Assembly: GCF_004001325.1 (NCBI RefSeq) | Contig: NZ_AP018722.1 | Location: 372,001 to 436,000 of the forward strand | Length of the DNA: 64,000 nt | Origin: Thiomicrorhabdus aquaedulcis | Lineage (GTDB): Bacteria; Pseudomonadota; Gammaproteobacteria; Thiomicrospirales; Thiomicrospiraceae | Reading direction: 5' to 3' | Shown here: in pieces, positions 2,871 through 62,921 of the stretch | Layout of the letters: every line of letters begins with the position of its first letter | Numbering within the stretch: the stretch's first letter is position 1 | The notes under the pieces: model-generated | What the model was told of the DNA's origin: nothing | What the model saw: only the letters and a program-made list of their open reading frames with translations | Databases searched by the model: none | Made by a program: the position numbers and the translations under genes

Positions 2871-5681
2871 TTATTTAAGCAATTTTTTAAGATAGTGCCC
2901 GGTAAACGACTCTGGGTGGTTAGCAATTAACTCTGGTGAGCCGGCGGCCAAAATTTGGCCTCCACCCGAACCGCCTTCTGGACCTAAATCAATGACCCAA
3001 TCGGCGGTTTTAATTACGTCTAAATTGTGTTCAATAATCACAATCGTGTTGCCTTGATCGCGCAAATGCCTAATGACTTTAAGCAACAGCTCAATGTCGT
3101 GAAAATGCAATCCAGTCGTGGGTTCGTCCAAAATGTACAGGGTATTGCCGGTGTCGCGTTTGGACAATTCTTTGGCCAGCTTAACGCGTTGCGCTTCGCC
3201 GCCCGATAAGGTAGTCGCACTTTGCCCCAATTTAATGTACCCCAAACCTACCTCAAGCAACATTTGCAGTTTGCGGGCAATCATCGGAATCGCATCAAAA
3301 AAGGCGCGCGCGTCTTCTACGGTCATCTCTAGGATTTGGTGAATGTTTTTGCCCTTGTACTGCACCTGCAACGTTTCTCGATTGTAGCGTGCGCCATGGC
3401 ACACGTCGCACGGCACATAGACATCGGGTAAAAAATGCATTTCAACTTTCAGTACGCCATCGCCCTGACACGCTTCACAACGCCCGCCTTTAACGTTAAA
3501 ACTAAAACGCCCCGGGGTGTACCCTCGCGTGCGTGATTCGGGCGTGGCCGAGAGCAGTTCGCGGATAGGGGTAAACAGCCCAGTATAGGTGGCCGGGTTA
3601 GAGCGTGGGGTGCGACCGATGGCACTTTGGTCAATGTTGACCGATTTATCAAATAAATCCATGCCCAATACGGCTTCGTGTGGCGCGGGTTCGTGCAGTG
3701 CGCCGTTGAGCATGTTGGCGGCTAATTTTGACAGTGTGCCGTTAATCAGCGTGGATTTTCCTGAGCCGGATACACCCGTTACACAGGTAAGCAGGCCAGC
3801 GGGAATGTGTAAATCGACCTTTTGCAAGTTGTGGCCACTCGCGCCTTTAATGGTGAGCCATTTGTCTTTTTGTGGCTGCAAGCGTTCGCTGGGAACCTCT
3901 ATTTTTCGTGTACCGTTTAAAAACTGTCCGGTGAGTGAATTGGGGTTGTCCATGACCTGTTGTGGTGTGCCTTGCGCCATAATGCGCCCACCATGAATGC
4001 CCGCGCCAGGACCAATGTCCAGCACATAGTCGGCGGCGCGAATGGCGTCTTCATCGTGCTCGACCACAATGACCGTATTGCCTAAATCGCGCAGGTGCAT
4101 CAAGGTGTCCAATAAGCGGTCGTTGTCGCGTTGATGTAACCCAATGGAAGGTTCATCCAGTACATACATCACCCCTACCAGGCCTGCGCCAATTTGGCTG
4201 GCCAAGCGAATGCGCTGGCCTTCGCCGCCCGACAGCGTGTCGGCACTGCGGTTTAAGGTTAAGTAGTTTAGGCCAACGTTGACTAAAAAGGTTAGGCGAT
4301 CGTGCACTTCTTTGGTGATTTTGCTGGCGATTTGGCCTTTAGCACCTTCTAAAGTTAGGGTGCTAAACAGGGTGTGCAAGTCACCCACCGGCAAGCTGGT
4401 GAGTTGTGGCAAGCTGTGGTTGGCGATAAACACATGGCGCGCCACCTCGTTTAAACGCGTGCCACCGCAACTGCTGCACGGTTTGGTGATGCGGTATTTG
4501 TCGAGCTCATCGCGCACGGTTTTACTCTCGGTTTCGGCAAAACGGCGCTCCATATTAGGCAGCACGCCTTCAAAACGCCGCGTGTCGCTGTATTTGCCGT
4601 GTGGCAGTGCAATTTTGTCTTTGCCCGAGCCAAATAAAATGATGTGCTGATGCGCGGTCGATAGGCTTTGCCACGGCGCTTCAATGTCAAAACCATAATG
4701 GTCGGCTAAGGCTTTAAGCAAATCGTAATAATATTTATGGCGACGATCCCAGCCTCTAATCGCGCCGCCGGCCAGACTTAGCTCTGGGTGGGTGATTACG
4801 CGTTCGGGATCAAAACTTTCTTTTACGCCCAAACCATCGCAGGTGGGACACGCGCCGTGCGGGTTGTTAAACGAAAAAATACGCGGTTCGAGCTCGGGCA
4901 CGCTGTAACCGCAGTGCGGACACGAAAATTTTTCTGAGAACATCAACGCAAAATCGTCTTCTTCGTCCATGGGCAATACTTGAGCGATTCCGCCCGCCAA
5001 ACGCAATGCGGTTTCAAACGATTCCGCCAAACGCTGTTTTAAGTCCTCGCGAACTTTAAAGCGATCAATCACCACTTCGATGTCGTGTTTTTTGTTTTTA
5101 TCCAATACCAGCGTGCCGTCTAGGTCGTGCACCACGCCGTCCACACGGGCGCGAATATAACCTTGTGCTTGCAGTTCGTCTAATAATTGGTGGTGCTCGC
5201 CTTTTTTACCGCGGATGATGGGGGCAATCAGCAGACATTTGGTGCCTTCGGGCAGGCTTAATGTGTGGTCAACCATTTGACTGACGGTTTGCGCCTCTAG
5301 GTCACAGCCGTGCGTAGGACAACGTGGCGTGCCGGCGCGGGCAAACAACAGACGCATATAGTCGTAAATTTCGGTGACGGTTCCCACGGTAGAACGCGGA
5401 TTGTGCGAAGTGGATTTTTGTTCAATTGAAATGGCCGGTGACAAACCTTCGATGTGATCGACATCGGGTTTTTCCATAATGGATAAAAATTGGCGCGCAT
5501 AAGCCGACAGAGATTCAACATAACGGCGTTGGCCTTCGGCGTAAATGGTGTCAAACGCCAGTGAGGATTTTCCCGAACCCGACAGGCCGGTAATCACAAT
5601 CAGCTTGTCGCGGGGCAAGGTAACGTCGATGTTCTTTAGGTTATGAGTGCGCGCCCCACGAATAATAATCTCTTCTAACAT
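2871..5681 (-). CDS. uvrA: Excinuclease ABC subunit A
   Basis: The 936-residue protein is full length for UvrA, the damage-recognition ATPase of nucleotide excision repair. It shows two ABC modules: Walker [14 protein letters not shown] near residue 31 and [10 protein letters not shown] near 640, and signatures [12 protein letters not shown] and [12 protein letters not shown]. The zinc modules are CPHC...CPTC (near 255) and CEAC...CDVC (near 740). The divergent yajR-like/ssb pair on the other side of one intervening gene is a variant of the common uvrA-ssb neighbourhood. No clear LexA box was found upstream. An imperfect 12-mer palindrome copy (10/12) occurs at 4187. Confidence 0.98.
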
Positions 5682-5714
5682 GCTGAACCGTCTACTGAAT
5701 GGAATAAAAACCGC

Positions 5715-5723
5715 ATTATACCA
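5715..5723 (-). promoter_or_regulatory. Extended -10 promoter for uvrA
   Basis: On the minus strand the region reads TGGTATAAT (5723 down to 5715), an extended -10 about 35 bp before the uvrA ATG. No convincing -35 is visible, as is usual for extended -10 promoters. Confidence 0.55.
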
Positions 5724-5770
5724 ATATTACAACCATTAAAGGCGTTGCCGGACGTTTGAGCTCGACCGAA

Positions 5771-6541
5771 TCAGTCAAGCAGAAGAATCGTACCGGACAC
5801 TTGCACACCCAGCGTGCTTTTGCCCGACTCTAGCGCGGGCTGTGCGGCGCTTGCAAGGCTCATTTCGGCGCGTGCAAATCTGGGTTGAGGCATAAGTCCG
5901 TCGTTTAATGTGTTGATCTGACTGTGCAAAATGCGCAGGCTTTGCGCGCCAAAGCTTTGGCGAATGAGTTCGGCTTGCTGTTTAAAACGGCTAATCGCCT
6001 GGGTGGTAAATTGCTCAAGCAGCGACTCTGTGCGAGCTTTTGAAACGGTAAACTGCATGGACTGATAAGTGACGTGCGGTTGCAGTTCGCTTAACACTTT
6101 GACCAGGCCTGGTTGATTGTCTAATTCAATGGTTAACGTTTGCTGGCCGTTCCAGTGACTGATAAGATTGTTTTTAGCGTAGGCTGGGTGAATCGAGTAA
6201 TTGGACGTTTGTGCGGTAATGTCTGGGTAGCTTTTTAAAATGTGCAACGCACGCTGCATCGCCGGATTAATGCTGTCGGCGACGGCCTGCGCGCTATCGC
6301 CTTGCGCCACGCGATGAAACTGCACGCTTAAACGGTCGTTATCAACCGACTCGCTGTGGGTCACGGTAAAATCGACTTTGTGGCCAAGCGGCTCGTTGGC
6401 TTGAGCCATTGGTGTATGAAGGAGTGTGGCGATTATAAAAAGGCCAGCAAGCCCTAAGCGCGCGCGAAGCGGCCAGAGATTAAAAAGGACGTTAGGTAAA
6501 AATCGAGTTGAGAATCGGTGTAATAAAACTGTGTGCGTCAT
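5771..6541 (-). CDS. Secreted SIMPL-domain (DUF541) protein
   Basis: The start at 6541 (MTHTVLLHRF) is chosen because AAAGGAG lies just upstream; the frame is open 17 codons further but without such a site. The 256-residue product has a hydrophobic export segment (about residues 29-48, ending MAQANE) and then a SIMPL/DUF541 domain. This domain has the features of the YggE/BP26 family: alternating beta strands, a TSNYSIHPAY segment and a C-terminal VSGTILLLD strand. Family members are periplasmic and linked to oxidative-stress defence, with an unclear biochemical role. The palindrome at 6102 encodes the QPGLV in its middle. Confidence 0.75.
   Translation of the reverse strand: MTHTVLLHRFSTRFLPNVLFNLWPLRARLGLAGLFIIATLLHTPMAQANEPLGHKVDFTVTHSESVDNDRLSVQFHRVAQGDSAQAVADSINPAMQRALHILKSYPDITAQTSNYSIHPAYAKNNLISHWNGQQTLTIELDNQPGLVKVLSELQPHVTYQSMQFTVSKARTESLLEQFTTQAISRFKQQAELIRQSFGAQSLRILHSQINTLNDGLMPQPRFARAEMSLASAAQPALESGKSTLGVQVSGTILLLD
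6102..6113. repeat. 12-mer palindrome ACCAGGCCTGGT, copy 3
   Basis: Exact copy within the SIMPL-domain gene. Confidence 0.95.
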
Positions 6542-8149: not shown

Positions 8150-8779
8150 ATGCGTGGAGTTAACAAAGTAATTTTAGTCGGCACCTTGGGTGCTGATCCA
8201 GAAGTAAAATACGCCGCCAACGGCAACGCCATTGCCAATTTAAGCGTGGCCACCAGCGAAGAGTGGAACGATAAAGCCACGGGTCAAAAACAGCAAAAAA
8301 CCGAATGGCATCGCATCAGCATTTTTGGCAAGTTGGCCGAGATTGCTGGGCAATACCTTAAAAAAGGTTCGCAAGTCTATTTAGAAGGTAAATTGCAAAC
8401 CCGCAAATGGCAAGATCAAAGTGGCCAAGACCGTTACACCACCGAAGTGGTGTTAAGCGGTTACGAGGGTGTTATGCAAATGCTCGGTGGCAATACCGGT
8501 GGTCGTCAAAGTGATACGGCGTTTGATCAATCTGGTTTTAACCAAGCACCACCGGCCAGACAAGCCGCGCCCATGGGCAATCCAAACGCCGGAAATCAGG
8601 GGATGCAACCGCACTATCAGCAACCCATGCAGCAAGCTCCTATGGGCAATCCAATGAACAATCAAATGGGTCACGCCGGGCAAGGTTTTGGGGGGCAGCC
8701 TGCGCAATCGGCACCACAACCACAGCGCGCACCAGCGTACGCGCCAAATGATTTTGACGATGACGATGTGCCATTCTGA
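8150..8779 (+). CDS. ssb: Single-stranded DNA-binding protein
   Basis: A 209-residue SSB. An N-terminal OB fold (about residues 1-110, [21 protein letters not shown]...) is followed by a long Gln/Pro/Met/Gly-rich linker and the acidic tip DFDDDDVPF that binds RecO, PriA, Exo I and other partners. The linker is somewhat longer than in E. coli SSB (178 aa). SSB coats ssDNA in replication, repair and recombination. It lies directly downstream of the yajR-like gene and ends at a hairpin terminator. Confidence 0.98.
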
Positions 8780-8810
8780 CGTATACTTGATGGTGTGTTG
8801 TTAAATTTCC

Positions 8811-8842
8811 AAAGCCTGCAAATTGCAGGCTTTGCCGTTTTT
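8811..8842 (+). terminator. Terminator after ssb
   Basis: Inverted repeat AAAGCCTGC (from 8811) with GCAGGCTTT (to 8833), then GCCG and five T. The stem is clear; the U tract is offset by four bases. Confidence 0.7.
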
Positions 8843-8875
8843 AGGATGTTCATGTGCAAGGTCTTAAAATAAACT

Positions 8876-10069
8876 TCAAAACAAATTATTGGGTTTGACC
8901 AGGCCTGGTCGAATGAGTATTTTCCAATACAGTGCGATTAATAATGCAAAGCCGGCCATCCAGCTAAATTGACTGAGTTGAATCCATAATAGGGTTTGCT
9001 TGGCAAACAACAGCGGAAAAATCACGCGCAATACCGCCGCCAAGGTCAGTGCGATAAACACCCATTTAAGCTCCAGTGTAAGACCCAGCACACTAAGACT
9101 TGGTGGCTGCAAAATAGAACGTTGTGTGTGTCCAAGGCTTATTCTGGCCAGCATCGCTGAGCACAAAAGCCCAACCCCGCCGGCAGCTAAGGCGTGAATG
9201 GCTAGGCTGGTGCTCAGCCAATTTAAATGGGCAAAGCCTAATAATATAAGACCTAAGGTGATAAACCCATAAGCCAAATGCAGCGGCCATAATAAAATTT
9301 GTGTCCAAATTTTATGCTGGTACCAGCGCACGCCCCGATAGGCAAACAACGCGCTCACGCCCCACGCCAACAGGCTCGTAACCAGAAGGTTGGGCCAAAT
9401 AATCACCGCCAACATAAGCGCTAAAAAACCCAGCATGGCGGCGTTATCCAGCCAGTTCTGCGGTTTAAGGGGTGCTAATTGCAACGATTTTTCGGTAAAA
9501 AACGGTATCATCCGCGCCATCATCGTGAGGTTAATGGCTAAAATGACAAACAGCCCGGCGGTTAGAATGTTGGCCAGCGTGCTTAAATTCGTGCTTGAAG
9601 GCGACATAATCAGCCCATAAAATAGCGCGTTAAGCGTCAGTAATGCGGCAAACAAACCGACCAGGCCTGCTTGTGTCCACAGGCGTTTTTTAATAATAGG
9701 CCAGGCAAACAAGGCCAGTAAACCCGCGTTAAAGCCTAAATCAAACAGTGCAATCCAGCCGATGGGCAAATTTATTAAATAGCCTAAACGTGCTAAACCC
9801 CATAGCGTAAAAATAACCGCCAGCGGCAGGCCTCGCGCCGAGTTCATGCCACTCCAATTAAGAACGGCGGTTAATAAAAAGCCCGTCACAATAGCAAGAG
9901 CATAACCAAAAATCATCTCATGAGCGTGCCAGTCAACCGAGCTTAAACCGGAAAACGCTAGGCTGGGATGGGTAAACTGCCAAGTCCACATAAACATAGC
10001 GACCAGCGCAAACACCGCACCGCCTAAAAAGAAAGGTCTAAAAGCACGTTCAAAGACGGTGTGAAACAT
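8876..10069 (-). CDS. nnrS: NnrS-family heme/copper membrane protein
   Basis: A 397-residue polytopic membrane protein (about 12 hydrophobic helices). It begins MFHTVFERAFRPFFLGGAVF and has the conserved WHAHEMIFGYA segment near residue 47, both diagnostic of NnrS. NnrS is tied to nitric oxide tolerance and controlled by NsrR/NnrR-type regulators. Here it is divergent from an nsrR-like gene with an NsrR-type operator between them, matching that regulon. The ATG has AAGGA upstream. A palindrome copy lies in the last codons (RPGLVKPN), and an 11/12 copy is at 9660. Confidence 0.93.
   Translation of the reverse strand: MFHTVFERAFRPFFLGGAVFALVAMFMWTWQFTHPSLAFSGLSSVDWHAHEMIFGYALAIVTGFLLTAVLNWSGMNSARGLPLAVIFTLWGLARLGYLINLPIGWIALFDLGFNAGLLALFAWPIIKKRLWTQAGLVGLFAALLTLNALFYGLIMSPSSTNLSTLANILTAGLFVILAINLTMMARMIPFFTEKSLQLAPLKPQNWLDNAAMLGFLALMLAVIIWPNLLVTSLLAWGVSALFAYRGVRWYQHKIWTQILLWPLHLAYGFITLGLILLGFAHLNWLSTSLAIHALAAGGVGLLCSAMLARISLGHTQRSILQPPSLSVLGLTLELKWVFIALTLAAVLRVIFPLLFAKQTLLWIQLSQFSWMAGFALLIALYWKILIRPGLVKPNNLF
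8898..8909. repeat. 12-mer palindrome ACCAGGCCTGGT, copy 4
   Basis: Exact copy near the nnrS stop codon. With its flanks it forms the 14-bp palindrome GACCAGGCCTGGTC. Confidence 0.95.
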
Positions 10070-42694: not shown

Positions 42695-43255
42695 GTGTTC
42701 AGCGTGCAAAAAATCATTGTGTTAGACCGCGACGGCGTCATTAACTACGATGCCGACGAGTTTATTAAAAGTGCCGATGAATGGCGGCCTTTGCCCGGCA
42801 GTTTAGAGGCAATTGCGCGCTTAAAGTCGCATGGCTGGTGGGTCGCGGTGGCCACCAATCAATCGGGTATAAAGCGTGGCTATTATTCACGTCACACCTT
42901 AAGCGCCATGCATCAAAAAATGCAAGCAGGCCTGGTAAGTTTGGGCGTTAAAGGGGGTCAGGGTGTGGATTGGGTGAGTTATTCACCCTATTTAACCCAC
43001 GACCATTCGCCCTCGCGCAAACCAGGCCTGGGCATGTTGCAGGCCATTGAACAACGTTTTGGTTTGAGTTTGGCGGGTGCGCCCATGGTGGGCGACACTT
43101 TGGCCGATGTGCAAGCGGCCTTGGGCAAAGCCATGCAGCCTGTTTTGGTTAAAACCGGCAAAGGTCAGCGCACCTTGCAAACCCAGCACCCACTTTTACA
43201 GCAAGTAACGGTGTTTGATGACTTATACACGGCGGTAGAGGATATTTTAAAATGA
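42695..43255 (+). CDS. gmhB: GmhB-like HAD phosphatase
   Basis: A 186-residue HAD phosphatase of the D,D-heptose 1,7-bisphosphate family (LPS core heptose synthesis). It has VLDRDGVINYD (nucleophile), ATNQSGIKRGYYS (motif 2) and RKPGLGML plus MVGDTLADVQAA (motifs 3/4). The start is GTG at 42695 or GTG at 42704. Oddity: the zinc loop usually written CPH...CxCRKP here reads YSPYLTHDHSPSRKP, so the zinc cysteines are missing. The glyS-gmhB-plsC order is conserved in gammaproteobacteria. Two 11/12 palindrome copies lie within it (42925 and 43021). Confidence 0.85.
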   Translation: MFSVQKIIVLDRDGVINYDADEFIKSADEWRPLPGSLEAIARLKSHGWWVAVATNQSGIKRGYYSRHTLSAMHQKMQAGLVSLGVKGGQGVDWVSYSPYLTHDHSPSRKPGLGMLQAIEQRFGLSLAGAPMVGDTLADVQAALGKAMQPVLVKTGKGQRTLQTQHPLLQQVTVFDDLYTAVEDILK

Positions 43256-43991
43256 AAATAATTTGGTTTATGCGTTCGGTGTTATTTGCCTTAGGGCAGG
43301 GCGTTAGTTTGGTGTTGTTTTCGGTGTTAGGCCAGCTTACCCGGCCGTTTTCGTTTGCGACGCGGTATCAATTTATGCACTATTGGGCCAAGTTTTGCCT
43401 GTTTTGGTTGCGCATAACATGCGGGGTGCGCTACGAGGTGCATGGGGCAGAACACATTCAAACTGAGCAAGCTGGCTTAATCCTTGCTAGACATGAATCG
43501 GCTTGGGAAACCTTGGCGTTTCAGGCGATTTTTCCGCGTCACGCTTACGTGCTTAAAAAGAGCTGCTTAAGATTCCTTTTTTTGGCTGGGGTATGGCATT
43601 GCTTAATCCCATTGCCATTGACCGTGGAGCGGGTCGTCAAGCGTTAAACCAGCTTATTAATGAAGGCAAACAACGTCTTAATGCAGGCGATTGGGTAGTG
43701 GTGTTTCCCGAAGGCACGCGCATGCCGCCAGGTGAGCTGGGTAAGGTGAATATTGGTGGCGCTATGTTGGCCAGCAAAGCCCACGCGCCGGTGTATTTGG
43801 TGGCGCACAATGCCGGACGCTTTTGGCCTAAAAATCGGTTTATAAAACGCCCTGGCACCATTACGGTGGTGATCAGTCCGCCGCTGGACGTAAGCACTAT
43901 GTCGGTTGCAAACATTAATCAACACGTTGAACAGTGGTTAGAAGAACATCTTAACCTGAGTGCAAACCGCACCAAGACAGGAGGTTTTTAA
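43252..43991 (+). pseudogene. plsC: PlsC-like 1-acylglycerol-3-phosphate acyltransferase, frame interrupted
   Basis: Two frames together encode one acyltransferase. The first holds the N-terminal helix and ARHESAWETLAF (an HX4E version of the HX4D motif). The second, from about 43562, holds GMALLNPIAIDRG, the FPEGTR motif and PVYLVAHNAG. One base is missing in or beside the A5 run at 43555-43559; an added base reads KKELLKIPFFGWGMALLNP and gives 246 residues, the usual size. It makes phosphatidic acid at the inner membrane. The ATG overlaps the gmhB stop. All motifs remain, so an undercalled homopolymer is the simplest reading. Confidence 0.85.
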
Positions 43992-44039: not shown

Positions 44040-44867
44040 ATGAGCAAACTTGCCACCGTGTTAGGGGTGATGATTGGTCTGATTATTTTAATCTTGAGCA
44101 TGATTGACTACCAGCAAGGCCAATTTATTTACGCCTTTTTTAACTGGCAAGGCCTGGCTTTGGTGTTGGGCGGTACACTGGCGGCTATTTTTATAAACTA
44201 CCCCATGCGCCAAGTGGGGTGTGTGTTTAGCGGTTTTATTAAGGTGTTTGCCAGCGAACCGGCACGCAGTGATGACGTCATTGAAGAAATTGTGCACTTA
44301 AGCCACATTAGCAAACAAAAAGGCCTGTTGGCCATCGAACATCAAATTGATTCTATCCAAGACCGTTTTTTACGGTTTTCGCTCACCGAAATGCTCATTT
44401 ACAACGACGCCGAAATGCTCAAGCAGAGTTTAGAAAATCGCCTAATAAACATGCGCTTACGTCATTTGGGTTGCCAAGAAGTGTATGGCAATATGGCCAG
44501 TTACGCCCCTGCATTTGGCATGATGGGTACGGTCATGGGGCTTATTATTATGATGACCACGCAGGTGGGTGGCGGTGACGCTTCGCCCTACGGTACGGCG
44601 CAAAGTAACGACATGCTGGGCAGTTTATTAAACGGCATGGGGTTAGCGTTGGTGACCACGTTTTATGGCGTGTTGTTTTCAAATCTGGTTTTTTTGCCCA
44701 TTGCCGGCAAACTCAAAGTGTTGTCTGACGCCGAAGTGTTGCGTAACGAGATTATTATTCACGGGGTGATGGGGCTTAAAAAGACCGAATCACCGTTGCT
44801 GATTAAAGAGCAATTATTGGCCTTTGTAAACGAAAAAACCAAGCTCCGATTGGAATCGCTAAGATAG
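44040..44867 (+). CDS. MotA/PomA-like proton-channel subunit (non-flagellar context)
   Basis: A 275-residue MotA/ExbB-family protein: two N-terminal helices (about 5-25 and 33-52), a cytoplasmic segment (about 60-150), and two C-terminal helices (about 158-178 and 195-220). The conserved Pro lies in YAPAFGMMGTVMGLIIMM. It resembles PomA/MotA in length and order. The next two genes are both MotB-like (one with and one without the channel Asp), a 1 A : 2 B gene arrangement. No flagellar genes flank it. It may be a stator or a PMF-driven envelope motor. Confidence 0.85.
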   Translation: MSKLATVLGVMIGLIILILSMIDYQQGQFIYAFFNWQGLALVLGGTLAAIFINYPMRQVGCVFSGFIKVFASEPARSDDVIEEIVHLSHISKQKGLLAIEHQIDSIQDRFLRFSLTEMLIYNDAEMLKQSLENRLINMRLRHLGCQEVYGNMASYAPAFGMMGTVMGLIIMMTTQVGGGDASPYGTAQSNDMLGSLLNGMGLALVTTFYGVLFSNLVFLPIAGKLKVLSDAEVLRNEIIIHGVMGLKKTESPLLIKEQLLAFVNEKTKLRLESLR

Positions 44868-44915
44868 TTAATCTTGGATAGTTTAATTTTGAATAGTTTA
44901 AAAGAGGAGTTTGTT

Positions 44916-45742
44916 ATGTCACTGCTCTTACTGGCGCGGCTAACGCAAAAAAAGACCGCGGTAAACTCACCAGGCCTGGTCAATAATCCAACCGACAACG
45001 CCGCCGAGCTGCAACGCATTAAACGTGAACGTCTGTGGCTGTTTACCTACATTGCGCTGTTTACCTCGTTGCTGGCGTTTTTTATTTTGATTATTTCCCT
45101 GATTGAGCTTGAAGGCTCTACCCCCAAACGCAACTACCAAAAATTGGTCAATATTTTGCATCAAGAATCGCTCCGCTATCAACAACAAGAGGGTCTGGGT
45201 TGGTTAAACATCGAAAACACCTTAACCAGCGGAATTCGTTATACCTTGCCCGCCAATCTCATTGTCAATACGCTGTTATTTGACTCGGCCAGCGCCCAAA
45301 TTAATCCCAGGTATACTCCCTACATTCGCAGTTTAAGCGACTTGTTGAGCGCCATGCAATTAGAGCAGTTTTCAACGCAGCATCAAAAACTCATTAAAGG
45401 CATTGAAGCGGCTGGCTACCAATTTAAAATTTTTATTCGCATCGAAGGGCACACCGACTCCAATCCCTTAGCGCCCACGGCACGCTTTAAAATAACGTCG
45501 AGCTAAGCACCTTTAGAGCCTACGCCATGATGGATTTACTGGCTACTTACACCGGGTTGCCCAAAACCTACTTTGCCATTGCCGGCTACGGCAGTTTTAG
45601 GCCCATTATGGCCGACCCCACCGACGGCTTAAACCGTCGGGTAGAAGTGTATTTATTGCCGCAATTGGTGTTAAAAGACCCCATGCCCGCTCCCGGTCAA
45701 GTGTTGCGTGAACCGGACACCGCACAGAGTTTTTTGCCATGA
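44916..45742 (+). pseudogene. MotB-like OmpA-domain protein B1 lacking the channel Asp; frame interrupted
   Basis: The ATG at 44916 follows AGAGGAG. One base is missing in the A4 run at 45489-45492: restored, the frame continues FKNNVELSTFRAYAMMDLL and yields 275 residues. There is one helix at about residues 40-62 (WLFTYIALFTSLLAFFILII) and a periplasmic OmpA/MotB peptidoglycan-binding domain (IEGHTDSNP... GYGSFRP... LNRRVEVYL). Aligned with B2 from the shared Trp, the channel Asp position is Ala47, so it cannot carry the proton itself. The palindrome at 44969 encodes SPGLV in its cytoplasmic tail. It sits between the A subunit and B2. Confidence 0.8.
44969..44980. repeat. 12-mer palindrome ACCAGGCCTGGT, copy 12
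   Basis: Exact copy in the first codons of the B1 gene. Confidence 0.95.
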
Positions 45743-45766
45743 GGGTTGCACGATGAAGGTTTTGCC

Positions 45767-46450
45767 ATGAGTTTAACAATGGAACGCGCAAAATCGTCGT
45801 GGTTGCTGTCGTTTGGCGATGTGGTGACCTTGCTGATTACCTTTTTTATTATGATGATTGCGCTTAATAAAGGCGAAATCTCAAAGTTACAGCGCTGGGT
45901 AGACGACCAAGTCACCGCATCGTATGAGCACGTGCAAGCCCAAATGGCGCAAACGCCATTGCAAATGGTGCAGGTGTACCGCAATGCGCGGGGGATTGTG
46001 CTGGTGATTAATCAGCCCGATGCCTTTATTTCCGGCGGGTTTGAACCATCGGCCGCCCTGCAAAGTGAACTCATGGCACTGGGGCAAGTATTGCCCACCA
46101 TTCCGCTGTTTGCGCTTAACAGCCAAGCGCAAAGCCGCGAGGTGATTGAGCACGCAAAAAGCGATGGTTTGGTGATGCGTATTGAGGTCAATGTCGAAGG
46201 TCACACCGACAACGACGCGATTGATCCACGTTCGAGCCTTAGAAATAACTGGTTTTTAAGCACCCTGCGGGCGCAAAGCGTTATGCAAACGCTGCACAGC
46301 GCCAGCGGCTTGCCGTCGCAACTGTTTTCGGTGGCCGGGTATGGCGAACATCAACCCATCGACAGCAATCAAACCGTGCAAGGCAAAGCCAATAATAGAC
46401 GAGTAGAAGTGTTAATTACCGCCAGTTTTCAAAAACAAGATGCGCCTTAG
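45767..46450 (+). CDS. MotB-like OmpA-domain protein B2 with channel Asp
   Basis: Start at 45767 (MSLTMERAKSSWLLSFGDVV) behind GAAGG; the frame opens earlier at a TTG. The 227-residue protein has one helix (about 12-34) with the proton-binding Asp18 in SFGDVVTLLITFF, and an OmpA/MotB domain (VEGHTDNDA... RSSLRNNWFLSTLRAQSVMQ... GYGEHQPIDSN... NNRRVEVLI). It begins 24 bp after B1. Together with the MotA-like protein it could form a rotary complex; in known A5B2 motors the two B chains are identical, so a B1/B2 heterodimer would be novel. Confidence 0.85.
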   Translation: MSLTMERAKSSWLLSFGDVVTLLITFFIMMIALNKGEISKLQRWVDDQVTASYEHVQAQMAQTPLQMVQVYRNARGIVLVINQPDAFISGGFEPSAALQSELMALGQVLPTIPLFALNSQAQSREVIEHAKSDGLVMRIEVNVEGHTDNDAIDPRSSLRNNWFLSTLRAQSVMQTLHSASGLPSQLFSVAGYGEHQPIDSNQTVQGKANNRRVEVLITASFQKQDAP

Positions 46451-46479: not shown

Positions 46480-47286
46480 CTAAGGTAAGCGCCAATCAAT
46501 CGGTGTTTGCCCATGCGCCAGTAAAGCAGCGTTAACAGCCGAAAAAGGTTTGCTCCCAAAAAAACCACGATACGCCGACAGGGGCGAAGGGTGAGGGCTC
46601 ATAATCATCGTGTGTTTGGCTTCGTCAATTAACGCCGCCTTTTTTTGTGCGTAGGCACCCCACAACACAAACACGCAATGTGGGCTGTGCTGGTTTACCG
46701 CGCTCATCACCGCATCGGTAAACGCTTCCCAACCTTGATTTTGATGCGAGTTGGTTCGTCCCGCCTCAACGGTTAAGACGGCATTAATCAATAATACCCC
46801 TTGTTGCGCCCAAGGTTGCAAACAGCCGTTATGACGATTATCAACGCCTAAATCACCCAACAATTCTTTATTAATATTAACCAGCGACTTTGGCAAAGGT
46901 TTAACCCTTGGCTGTACCGAAAAACACAAACCGTGCGCGTGGCCGGGCGTGGGGTAAGGGTCTTGCCCCAAAATAACCACCTTGACTTGGTTAAGCGGTG
47001 TGGTGTTTAGGGCATTAAACCAGTGTTCAGCGGGGGGCAGAATGGTCTTGCCTGATTGCTGTTGAGCGTGTAAAAACGCCACTAATTGTGTCCAATAAGC
47101 TTGGTTAAATTCGGCTGACAGTGCGTTTAACCAACTGGCCTCTAACGGCGGTGTTTTACGCCATAACTTAGGTTGCAGAGTTGGCGCTGCTTGTGTTGGC
47201 TGGACATTGTTTTCAAACTCTAAAGTTTGTTGTGGGTGTAAGGTCATTTTGGGTAATTCGGTTCTAAAAACATCGTTGGAGTGCAC
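46480..47286 (-). CDS. ung: Uracil-DNA glycosylase
   Basis: A 268-residue UDG with the catalytic GQDPYPTPGHAHGLCFS (Asp general base), LLINAVLTVEAG, and the HPSPLSAYRGFFGSKPFS minor-groove loop (His). It excises uracil from DNA. The N-terminal 45 residues are long and unconserved. The GTG at 47286 is the outermost start, and the ATG at 47247 (MTLHPQQ) is a plausible alternative. Divergent from parE with a palindrome copy between. Confidence 0.95.
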   Translation of the reverse strand: MHSNDVFRTELPKMTLHPQQTLEFENNVQPTQAAPTLQPKLWRKTPPLEASWLNALSAEFNQAYWTQLVAFLHAQQQSGKTILPPAEHWFNALNTTPLNQVKVVILGQDPYPTPGHAHGLCFSVQPRVKPLPKSLVNINKELLGDLGVDNRHNGCLQPWAQQGVLLINAVLTVEAGRTNSHQNQGWEAFTDAVMSAVNQHSPHCVFVLWGAYAQKKAALIDEAKHTMIMSPHPSPLSAYRGFFGSKPFSAVNAALLAHGQTPIDWRLP

Positions 47287-61321: not shown

Positions 61322-62164
61322 ATGTTTGCAAAACCGTTAGGAATTCTATTAATCACCGTCAGCTTTTTTGGTGGCTTTATGCTCATGGGCGGCAATTTAA
61401 TGTCGTTATGGCATCCGTCCGAATTGGTGGTGATATTGGGCATTGCGTTAGGAACGTTTTTGGCCTCGACCCCCACCTATGTGTGGATGCGAACCCTTGA
61501 TTTTTTAGGGCGTTATTTTGCTGGTGAGCGAGTCTCAAAAAAGTTGTATGCCGACACCTTGGGGTTGCTAGAAGAGTTGGCGCGCTTGTCGCGTTCGGCC
61601 GGTGTTTTGGCGCTTGAAAAACATTTGGTGAGTCCCGAAAGCAGCCCCATTTTTATGCACTACACTCGGGTGCTTAAACACAAAGATTTAAAAAAGTTTA
61701 TTGTTGATAACTTCTCGTATTTACTGCTTAACCCGCCGCAAAGTCAAAACTTTGAGCACCATTTAGAAGACCAAATTCACGACATTTACAACTCAATGAT
61801 GGAAGTGCCCCGCTCGGTGGGCAAGGTGGCGGATTGGTTGCCTGGCTTTGGGATTGTCGCCGCCGTGTTGGGGGTGATATTAACCATGGAGTTATTGGGG
61901 GGTGACATGGACGTGGCCAAGATTGGTACGGCCATTGGCGCGGCCCTGGTGGGCACGCTCACCGGTGTGTTTTTTGCCTTTGCGGTGTTAGCGCCTTTTG
62001 TGCACGCCATTGAGGTGATGATTCGGCAAGATCGTTCATTGTTTGAAATGTCGGCTGCTTTTATGGCCGCTTACGCCAATGGCGTGTCGCCCAACTTAGC
62101 AGTTGAGATTGGTCGTCAGCGTATTCCACCCGAGTTTGAAGTGCCGCGCGAGGAGTCGGTTTAA
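61322..62164 (+). CDS. motA: Flagellar motor stator protein MotA
   Basis: A 280-residue proton-type MotA with four helices (about 7-27, 34-52, 172-192, 203-225) and a cytoplasmic loop holding the charged residues that push FliG. The helix-3 Pro lies in DWLPGFGIVAAVLGVILTM. Motifs and length match the MotA/LafT group. No ribosome site is strong. motB follows at once. It is distinct from the MotA-like protein at 44040. Confidence 0.9.
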   Translation: MFAKPLGILLITVSFFGGFMLMGGNLMSLWHPSELVVILGIALGTFLASTPTYVWMRTLDFLGRYFAGERVSKKLYADTLGLLEELARLSRSAGVLALEKHLVSPESSPIFMHYTRVLKHKDLKKFIVDNFSYLLLNPPQSQNFEHHLEDQIHDIYNSMMEVPRSVGKVADWLPGFGIVAAVLGVILTMELLGGDMDVAKIGTAIGAALVGTLTGVFFAFAVLAPFVHAIEVMIRQDRSLFEMSAAFMAAYANGVSPNLAVEIGRQRIPPEFEVPREESV

Positions 62165-62165
62165 C

Positions 62166-62921
62166 ATGTCACGGCGCGGCGGCGGGCACGACGAAGGCGG
62201 TGCGCACGGCGGCTCATGGAAAATTGCGCTGGCCGATTTAATGACCGTCTTGATGGTGTTTTTTTTGGTGATGTGGCTCATGGCGGTGGTTGACCCCAAA
62301 GAGCGCGAAGCCTTTGTAAACAGTTTGGCCGGCAAACCGCCCATAGGAGCCGAAATTCAAGACGACAAATTATTGCCACCGCAAACCGAAATTGTTCAGC
62401 TTGATTTAAAACCGCCCGCGTCTGCTAAAGAGATTGAAGAGGCGTTTAAAGGCACTAATCCCAAAGACATTGATATTGAAGACGGCGTTGACTTTACCAA
62501 GATTACCTTGCGCTCGGACAGCTTTTTTGAAAGTGGCCGTGCCACCATCAGCGATAAAACCCGTGAACAATTAGAGACTTTGGGCGAAACCCTAAGCGGT
62601 CGTGGACAGGTCATGATTATTACCGGTTTTACCGACAATTTGCCCATTAGCAACTTTCAGTTTCCATCTAACTGGGAACTTTCGGCCGCGCGTGCGGCTA
62701 TGGTGGCACGAGTGTTTGTCGATTTGGGAGTGGATAAAAACCTGATTGCCATTCAGGGCAAAGCCGACAACGAAGAGGTCGCACCCAATGAAACCGCCTA
62801 CGGCCGGTCTTTAAACCGTCGGGTGGTGATTGAAATTGATAAACGCACGCCTTCAGCCAATGCTCAAAAAGCGACAATAAATCTTAACCCTTCTTTGACC
62901 AGGCCTGGTCAAACACAATAA
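62166..62921 (+). CDS. motB: Flagellar motor stator protein MotB
   Basis: ATG at 62166, one base after the motA stop, with GAGGAG inside motA's end. The 251-residue protein has a Gly-rich N-tail, one helix with the essential Asp24 in ALADLMTVLMVFFLVMWL, a plug segment and an OmpA/MotB domain (GFTDNLPI... NWELSAARAAMVARVF... YGRSLNRRVVIEI). The Asp and the FFLVMWL context indicate a proton channel. The palindrome at 62898 encodes the terminal TRPGQ. Confidence 0.93.
   Translation: MSRRGGGHDEGGAHGGSWKIALADLMTVLMVFFLVMWLMAVVDPKEREAFVNSLAGKPPIGAEIQDDKLLPPQTEIVQLDLKPPASAKEIEEAFKGTNPKDIDIEDGVDFTKITLRSDSFFESGRATISDKTREQLETLGETLSGRGQVMIITGFTDNLPISNFQFPSNWELSAARAAMVARVFVDLGVDKNLIAIQGKADNEEVAPNETAYGRSLNRRVVIEIDKRTPSANAQKATINLNPSLTRPGQTQ
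62894..62913. repeat. 20-bp perfect palindrome containing 12-mer copy 17
   Basis: TTTGACCAGGCCTGGTCAAA. The exact 12-mer is 62898-62909. It spans the last codons of motB and could also act as a 3' hairpin. Confidence 0.95.

Follow-up and report, generated by a model that had tools for sequence, protein, structure and literature searches.

The stretch of Thiomicrorhabdus aquaedulcis DNA analyzed here (the window; 64,000 nucleotides, G000:C1:372001-436000) encodes a set of three genes, henceforth termed the trio, in which one MotA/PomA-type A subunit is followed by two unequal MotB-like subunits, B1 and B2. Only B2 carries the aspartate of the ion channel. The trio is conserved as a unit and under selection, and, as the earlier note on this DNA had stated, the window has an ordinary motAB besides, at 61.3 kb; related trios recur in flagellar operons of distant bacteria. 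On balance, we favor the reading that the trio forms an ion-driven stator of the MotA/PomA type with 5:2 stoichiometry, in which B1 and B2 would pair as a heterodimeric axle and the Asp of B2 would be the sole ion site. The parts of the trio are as follows, in window coordinates.

44040..44867, + strand: A subunit of 275 amino acids, MotA/PomA-type (MotP/PomA-like), Pfam MotA_ExbB 69 bits
44916..45506, + strand: B1 subunit, N-terminal 196 amino acids in frame, with a transmembrane (TM) helix without Asp and the start of the OmpA domain (from Pfam and sequence)
45054..45056, + strand: B1 residue 47, an Ala where the channel Asp would stand (from sequence, alignments and profile alignment)
45491..45742, + strand: remainder of the B1 OmpA domain in another frame, the reading frame shifting at an A-run; relatives have the domain unbroken
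45767..46450, + strand: B2 subunit of 227 amino acids, TM helix with Asp and OmpA domain at residues 140-211 (Pfam MotB_plug 35.6 bits, OmpA 45.4 bits)
45818..45820, + strand: B2 residue 18, Asp, the predicted ion-binding site (from sequence)

These positions and Pfam assignments agree with the earlier description of one A and two unequal OmpA-domain B genes. The A subunit can be aligned with solved MotA and PomA chains, reaches 161.6 bits against the NCBIfam model MotP (under the model cut-off of 394), and has Thr residues in the motifs GMMGTVMGL and LVTTFYG, which align with those of PomA. Both Thr-containing motifs presumably serve in the channel. The open frame of B1 begins at a TTG codon (44874) and is numbered here from the ATG at 44916; its Pfam MotB_plug score is 22.3 bits as a fragment and 24.3 bits with its frame neighbors (cut-off 24). 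Relatives of B2 in the Protein Data Bank (PDB) are MotB, PomB, and MotS. Counted from the ATGs at 44916 and 45767, B1 has Ala47 where B2 has Asp18, as had been noted, and when the B1 sequences are aligned by profile to the solved MotB 6ysl, the B1 site pairs with the Asp in PYADILTLL. For the B1 of a relative (locus L035), an AlphaFold model (nine rows, single chain; mean predicted local distance difference test score 83.6) consists of a long N-terminal helix and an OmpA-type domain, and its best solved matches are the periplasmic domains of PomB, MotB, and MotS. Set against the FIT group of MotAB/PomAB-type stators (PMC12505986), the trio has an A subunit of the MotA/PomA type with the channel Thr residues and two B subunits that both combine a TM helix with an OmpA-type domain, but the channel Asp expected in every B is missing from 43 of 45 B1 sequences. 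For this reason we regard the trio as a stator variant rather than an ordinary member of that group.

To trace B1, a profile of 21 B1 sequences was run over 62 genomes of the family, which are also the 62 of its order, with B1 and B2 assigned by BLAST. Strong matches (at least 228 bits) were obtained in 45 of the 62 genomes and in six of seven genera, the broken copy of the window itself scoring 270 bits; the genomes without a match were 14 of the 32 in the window's genus as well as G034, G035, and G059, several of them being incomplete. Outside the family, the profile gave no match at E 1e-40 in 369 genomes sampled evenly across the class. Among the matches listed, close B1 proteins came from Thiomicrospira sp. 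WB1, Hydrogenovibrio sp. SC-1, Thiomicrorhabdus sp. 6S3-12, and a Thiotrichales metagenome-assembled genome. At the channel site, the 45 B1 rows (44 relatives and the window) have Ala in 17, Ser in 15, Gly in 10, Thr in one, and Asp in two, and all 44 B2 rows have Asp; two partial second copies without letters at the site, G073x in the B1 alignment and G079x in the B2 alignment, were left out of these counts. Since only A, S, G, T, or D occur there in 45 rows, the B1 pattern goes beyond chance. The proposal that B1 always lacks and B2 always has the Asp is thereby upheld in full for B2, and for B1 apart from G078 and G080, where the Asp appears to be a secondary regain.

The three genes also travel together. 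B2 directly follows B1 in all 44 family loci read, with a 4-nucleotide overlap in 32 (taking the first possible start), which suggests that translation of the two is coupled. A precedes B1 in 43 of those 44 genomes, the contig of G032 starting within the operon. The operon of G073 is divided between two contigs, one with the A-B1 junction and the other with the B1-B2 junction. A separate, unlinked occurrence of B1 and B2, which would have spoken against the idea of a unit, was looked for and not encountered in the 44 loci; the same three-gene order was instead recovered there and in seven distant trios described below.

Sequence comparison indicates that B1 is under purifying selection. Across 11 genome pairs, the ratio of nonsynonymous to synonymous substitution rates (dN/dS) of B1 was 0.04-0.17 in seven. 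One pair, whose B1 proteins are identical, gave zero, and saturation of synonymous sites prevented a value in three. Values for B2 resemble those for B1, and both are rough, as some dS exceed 1. In the B1 TM helix, L52, L53, A54, and F56 are invariant in 21 rows. The copy in the window is frame-broken near 45.49 kb, being open to 45506 with the OmpA domain running on in another frame to 45742, and B1 is intact in relatives, with ca. 240-300 amino acids. Ca. 2 kb upstream of B1, the plsC gene of the window is likewise split (43252-43647 / 43593-43991), although it forms one frame in most relatives. Because both breaks fall at short A-runs, an assembly (indel) error is likely behind the two of them. 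The broken copy could in itself be taken as a sign of a sequencing error or of a B1 pseudogene in decay, yet intact relatives, the low dN/dS in seven usable pairs, and the same A-B1-B2 pattern in distant lineages leave this explanation with a negligible probability, and for the family it is already refuted.

The two Asp-bearing B1 proteins, of G078 and G080, cluster together within their genus, next to the B1 of G079, which has no Asp. In a quick B1 tree from which TM columns were excluded, a single change (support 100) accounts for the Asp, which is best read as one secondary regain. Both proteins are also B2-like at positions 31, 33, and 39 (E. coli numbering), with Ala, Val, and Thr, respectively. 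When the TM DNA of B1 and B2 from these genomes was placed side by side, no obvious copying that would point to gene conversion from B2 as the source of the Asp was apparent. Position 31 belongs to the dimer interface of E. coli MotB, and the A31I variant is non-motile according to the available portion of PMC10659934. Among family sequences, this position is Ile or Val in 43 of 45 B1 and Gly or Ala in 44 of 44 B2, so a mixed B1:B2 dimer would pair a large with a small residue.

Trios of the same composition occur outside the family. The distant search covered 110 loci in one set and 43 in another, many without a complete operon, some repeated, and some from the family. Seven distant trios with an Asp-less B1 and an Asp-bearing B2 were recognized: L040 (G427), L050 (G428), L066 (G429), L069 (G430), L202/L221 (G181), L241/L286 (G431), and L268/L287 (G598). 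Their B1 site is Ala or Ser, and MotB_plug was found in B1 of three of them. Flagellar operons hold six of the seven, five directly upstream of FliL-FliM.

L040: FliH and a FliI-type ATPase before; FliL-FliM after
L050: FlgE before; FliL-FliM-FliO after
L066: contig start before; FliL-FliM-FliN-FliP after
G181 trio: FliF, FliG, and FlgE before; FliL-FliM after
G431 trio: FliI-type ATPase and FlgD before; contig end after
G598 trio: FliL-FliM-FliP after
L069: outside a flagellar operon; LpxK among the neighbors

FliG was found in all five distant-trio genomes searched (G181, G427-G430). At E 0.001, the Pfam model PF13677, which could miss divergent MotB, detected only the two B genes of the trio in G181 (99% complete), G427, and G428, one further match in G429, and four matches in G430 (two in the first trio, one in the second, and one other). 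The trio of the flagellar operon is probably the flagellar stator in a number of genomes from Myxococcota, Desulfobacterales, and related groups. Not every tandem pair follows this pattern: Asp is present in both B subunits of L236 (the second trio of G430), L255, L264, and probably L243. The 26 other loci of L194-L220 have one Asp-bearing B with their A and no second B within 1.5 kb on each side. The Bdellovibrionales genome G430 thus has two trios, one in a flagellar operon (L288, Asp in both B) and one adjoining LpxK (L069, Asp-less B1). At L255 (G472) and L264 (G593), from the phylum of G428, the A subunit of the A-B-B set lacks both the Arg and the Glu of the FliG contact. In the Myxococcales trio (L050 5650-6393), the C-terminal part of B2 is without the usual OmpA-type NRR motif, and the two B domains may share out the anchoring work there.

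From the gene and Asp patterns we infer the following complex. A ring of five A subunits, a number adopted from the stator family, would surround a B1:B2 axle. B2 would give the only ion-binding Asp and B1 would put a small neutral residue in the second place, acting as a structural, peptidoglycan-anchoring partner, with the axle held at the cell wall by both OmpA domains. Published models have the two equivalent B sites take turns, each for half a period (available text of PMC9175137), and the published stator step is 36 degrees (available text of PMC10659934). If ions entered via B2 alone, there would be one stroke per A subunit, i.e., a step of ca. 72 degrees and five ions per turn, in contrast to 36 degrees and ten ions per turn for an alternating two-site cycle. 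The single site may act like a change of gear, with fewer ions spent on each turn, or it may make the motor weaker.

A heterodimer with a single site, as the earlier note had put forward, would be the simplest reading of the gene and Asp pattern, although a number of observations tell against it. An Asp-less B1 is not obligatory, as G078 and G080 have Asp in both B subunits and the B1 of L236, in the flagellar operon of G430, keeps its Asp. The large residue at position 31 also occurs in some ordinary single-B proteins with Asp (L195). Further MotB genes are present in family genomes among the matches listed, so the trio is dispensable for flagella in the family. Of the rotor-contact charges of A, which are R90/E98 in E. 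coli (available text of PMC4525482), the Arg is absent from all 19 family A subunits sampled (Lys in seven, His in five, Gln in four, and Leu, Phe, or Tyr in one each), which makes a non-flagellar target possible there. A single origin of all Asp-less trios is neither shown nor rejected by the trees, the approximately unbiased test of one clade giving p-AU 0.35 for the A tree, 0.66 for the B tree, and 0.41 for the B tree minus the TM part. Finally, separate A5(B1)2 and A5(B2)2 stators would leave the same gene pattern.

This last arrangement, two homodimeric stators sharing one A, with A5(B2)2 active and A5(B1)2 inactive or regulatory and competing for A or for peptidoglycan sites, draws on the fact that mixing of B1 and B2 is here a prediction from genes, and on Aquifex, where each MotB, with the E. 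coli periplasmic part fused, works singly with one MotA (as reported in the accessible part of PMC4525482). We nevertheless consider it unlikely: B1 has Ile or Val at the interface position where B2 has Gly or Ala and where A31I abolishes motility in E. coli, the two genes are adjacent and mostly overlapping, and in G181, G427, and G428, without other MotB-type genes by PF13677, part of the B pool would be inert. A somewhat less probable proposal removes B1 from the axle altogether and makes it an accessory, peptidoglycan-bound regulator of an ordinary A5(B2)2 stator, comparable to the periplasmic helpers of other motors. An OmpA-type domain and a missing catalytic residue would suit such a role, but the B1 TM helix keeps the MotB pattern, 43 of 45 rows have a small residue where the Asp would be, and a channel-lining helix fits the two genomes in which Asp came back along with A31, V33, and T39. 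The heterodimeric stator with one ion site is the reading we prefer.

A distinct question, compatible with the heterodimer, is what the trio of the window family drives. The genome of the window has three stator sets, namely the trio, the motAB at 61.3 kb of the window, and MotA-MotB-FliL-FliM at 854-858 kb of the contig, which makes the trio its third. The slot upstream of FliL-FliM, filled by the trio in most of the distant cases, holds an ordinary pair here. In the family, the trio could act as an additional stator on the same flagellum, used in particular conditions, or it could be a separate cell-envelope motor of flagellar-stator descent with another partner. The latter, which we hold to be quite possible though somewhat short of even, would account for the location of the trio ca. 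430 kb from the flagellar cluster (FliG at 848 kb, FlhA at 862 kb), which has its own MotA-MotB-FliL-FliM, for flanks that, where they match window proteins, are housekeeping or chemoreceptor genes, and for the replaced FliG-contact Arg in 19 of 19 A subunits. In a quick A tree of 82 rows, the family forms one clade (support 100), and 15 single-B rows that are likewise without this Arg, 14 of them of the window's class, are weakly joined to it (support 80); the seven distant trios group with three single-B rows (support 87). Against a separate motor, the family A retains the FliG-contact Glu in 19 of 19 cases, with a basic residue at the Arg position or next to it in 17, and the distant kin are flagellar. 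The A of the distant trios has the Arg in 7/7 and the Glu in 6/7; for single-B rows, the counts are 33/53 and 39/53. FliG matches occur in 61 of the 62 family genomes, being weak only in G007, G010, G072, and G074; FlhA is present in G072 and G074 and was not found in G007 (88% complete) and G010 (86% complete). The one genome without a FliG match, G035, is complete and also lacks FlhA, any MotB_plug protein, and the trio, a single case that speaks for a flagellar link. Since FliG is near-universal in the family, correlation does not tie the presence of the trio to flagella. An accessory stator of the same flagellum and another envelope partner therefore stand at about even odds, slightly in favor of the flagellum. 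The suggestion of an envelope machine apart from flagella does not extend to six of the seven distant trios, which lie in flagellar operons, and may still apply to the window genome, given the distance from the flagellar cluster and the missing Arg.

Several FliG-like proteins were seen along the way. The window genome encodes a pair of small proteins (162 and 171 amino acids) with weak FliG_C similarity at G000:C1:2008720-2009546 (L283 5694-6778, minus strand), and pairs of weak FliG_C matches occur in many family genomes, within ca. 1 kb of a MotB gene in G075, G081, and G082. We considered the small proteins at 2.009 Mb as a special rotor of the trio and rejected the idea, as family genomes have the weak matches whether or not they carry the trio, and in three trio-bearing g2 genomes there is only one FliG match each. 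At L279 (G176; 8197-9441) and L280 (G164; 4949-6301), a protein with cyclic-nucleotide-binding and FliG C-terminal domains is encoded beside single-B MotA/MotB pairs, which group near the A of the window. Such loci may encode a non-flagellar stator that has a FliG-like rotor to itself.

The surroundings of the trio in the window comprise the following features.

43252..43991, + strand: plsC-like acyltransferase, directly upstream of the trio, split; part of the conserved neighborhood and outside the motor (from sequence, Pfam, and conserved order)
46480..47286, - strand: ung (uracil-DNA glycosylase), downstream flank (Pfam UDG 67.7 bits, conserved order)
61322..62921, + strand: ordinary motA-motB pair with a single, Asp-bearing B (Pfam)

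The usual order in the family is glyQ-glyS-gmhB-plsC-A-B1-B2-(chemoreceptor)-ung-parE, where Pfam backs glyQ, glyS, and ung, and the parE product resembles topoisomerase subunits of the DNA gyrase B type; gmhB, plsC, and parE are the more specific names that we take to apply. Neighbors named by Pfam or gene order are housekeeping genes, the comparison of family flanks being confined to window proteins. The trio stays together outside this neighborhood in G058 and G060, and also in G032, where the A end is cut by the contig. Because it is kept together elsewhere in G058 and G060, the neighborhood tells little about its function. The lipid/lipopolysaccharide setting described in the earlier note is real as a conserved gene order, but has little bearing on function, and a role derived from these neighbors was dismissed on the strength of the same three genomes.

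Among known systems, the closest precedent is Aquifex aeolicus, a flagellated bacterium whose stator locus likewise has one motA followed by two motB (motA-motB1-motB2; PMC4525482, PMC4987623). According to the accessible text of these papers, the periplasmic parts of MotB1 and MotB2 share 23% identity, and the N-terminal and TM regions are 97% identical, differing only at residue 20 (Gly/Ser; PMC4525482), so both presumably carry the Asp. The B1 and B2 of the trio, in contrast, differ throughout, and B1 is without Asp. The Myxococcus gliding motor AglRQS also combines one A-type with two B-type subunits, whose homo- or heterodimeric state is given as unknown in the available part of PMC9389320. 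Its B subunits, unlike those of the trio, both have Asp and TolR-like peptidoglycan-binding domains and serve gliding rather than a flagellum (PMC9389320, same part). Membership of the AglRQS type was rejected, as the trio has an OmpA domain in B2, an OmpA-type fold in the B1 of a relative, and an Asp-less B1. The A5B2 stators PomAB, MotPS, and MotAB (PDB 8bri, 6ysl, 9lu9, and others) resemble the trio in A sequence, channel Thr, B TM helix, and OmpA domain and differ in having one Asp-bearing kind of B and two equal ion sites. B1 and B2 also score on the PADLOC ZorB models of Zorya ZorAB through MotB/OmpA similarity, as does the ordinary motB at 62 kb; Zorya defense was discarded, since A matches no PADLOC model, in a scan that did not take in the neighboring genes, and is of the MotA/PomA type. 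In the accessible portions of a 2025 MotAB survey, which took the gene after A as B (PMC12505986), and of a paper on Bdellovibrio-type stators, which treats motAB pairs (PMC11323537), a second B is not mentioned. Across the open-access papers, mostly titles and abstracts, we noticed no stator with an Asp-less second B, and Aquifex and AglRQS were the only precedents noticed in that partly seen literature.

If B1 and B2 do pair, the trio would be a natural one-site motor maintained under selection, which would mean that alternation between sites is unneeded or that a new coupling scheme is required. It would question the rule of two identical ion sites per stator motor, and step size, torque, and the number of ions used per turn could readily be tested on it. 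Distinguishable B chains would be useful for labeling the axle, and the B1 proteins that regained Asp provide a built-in natural comparison. The trio also calls for caution in surveys that use the gene after motA as the B partner (as in the available text of PMC12505986), which would pick the Asp-less B at trio loci. With a confidence that comes close to even, we propose that heterodimeric single-site stators are a stable and widespread one-stroke form of the two-stroke 5:2 motor. In some Myxococcota and their kin this form would be the sole flagellar stator, and sulfur bacteria of the Thiomicrospira type would have recruited it either as an envelope motor or as a third stator.

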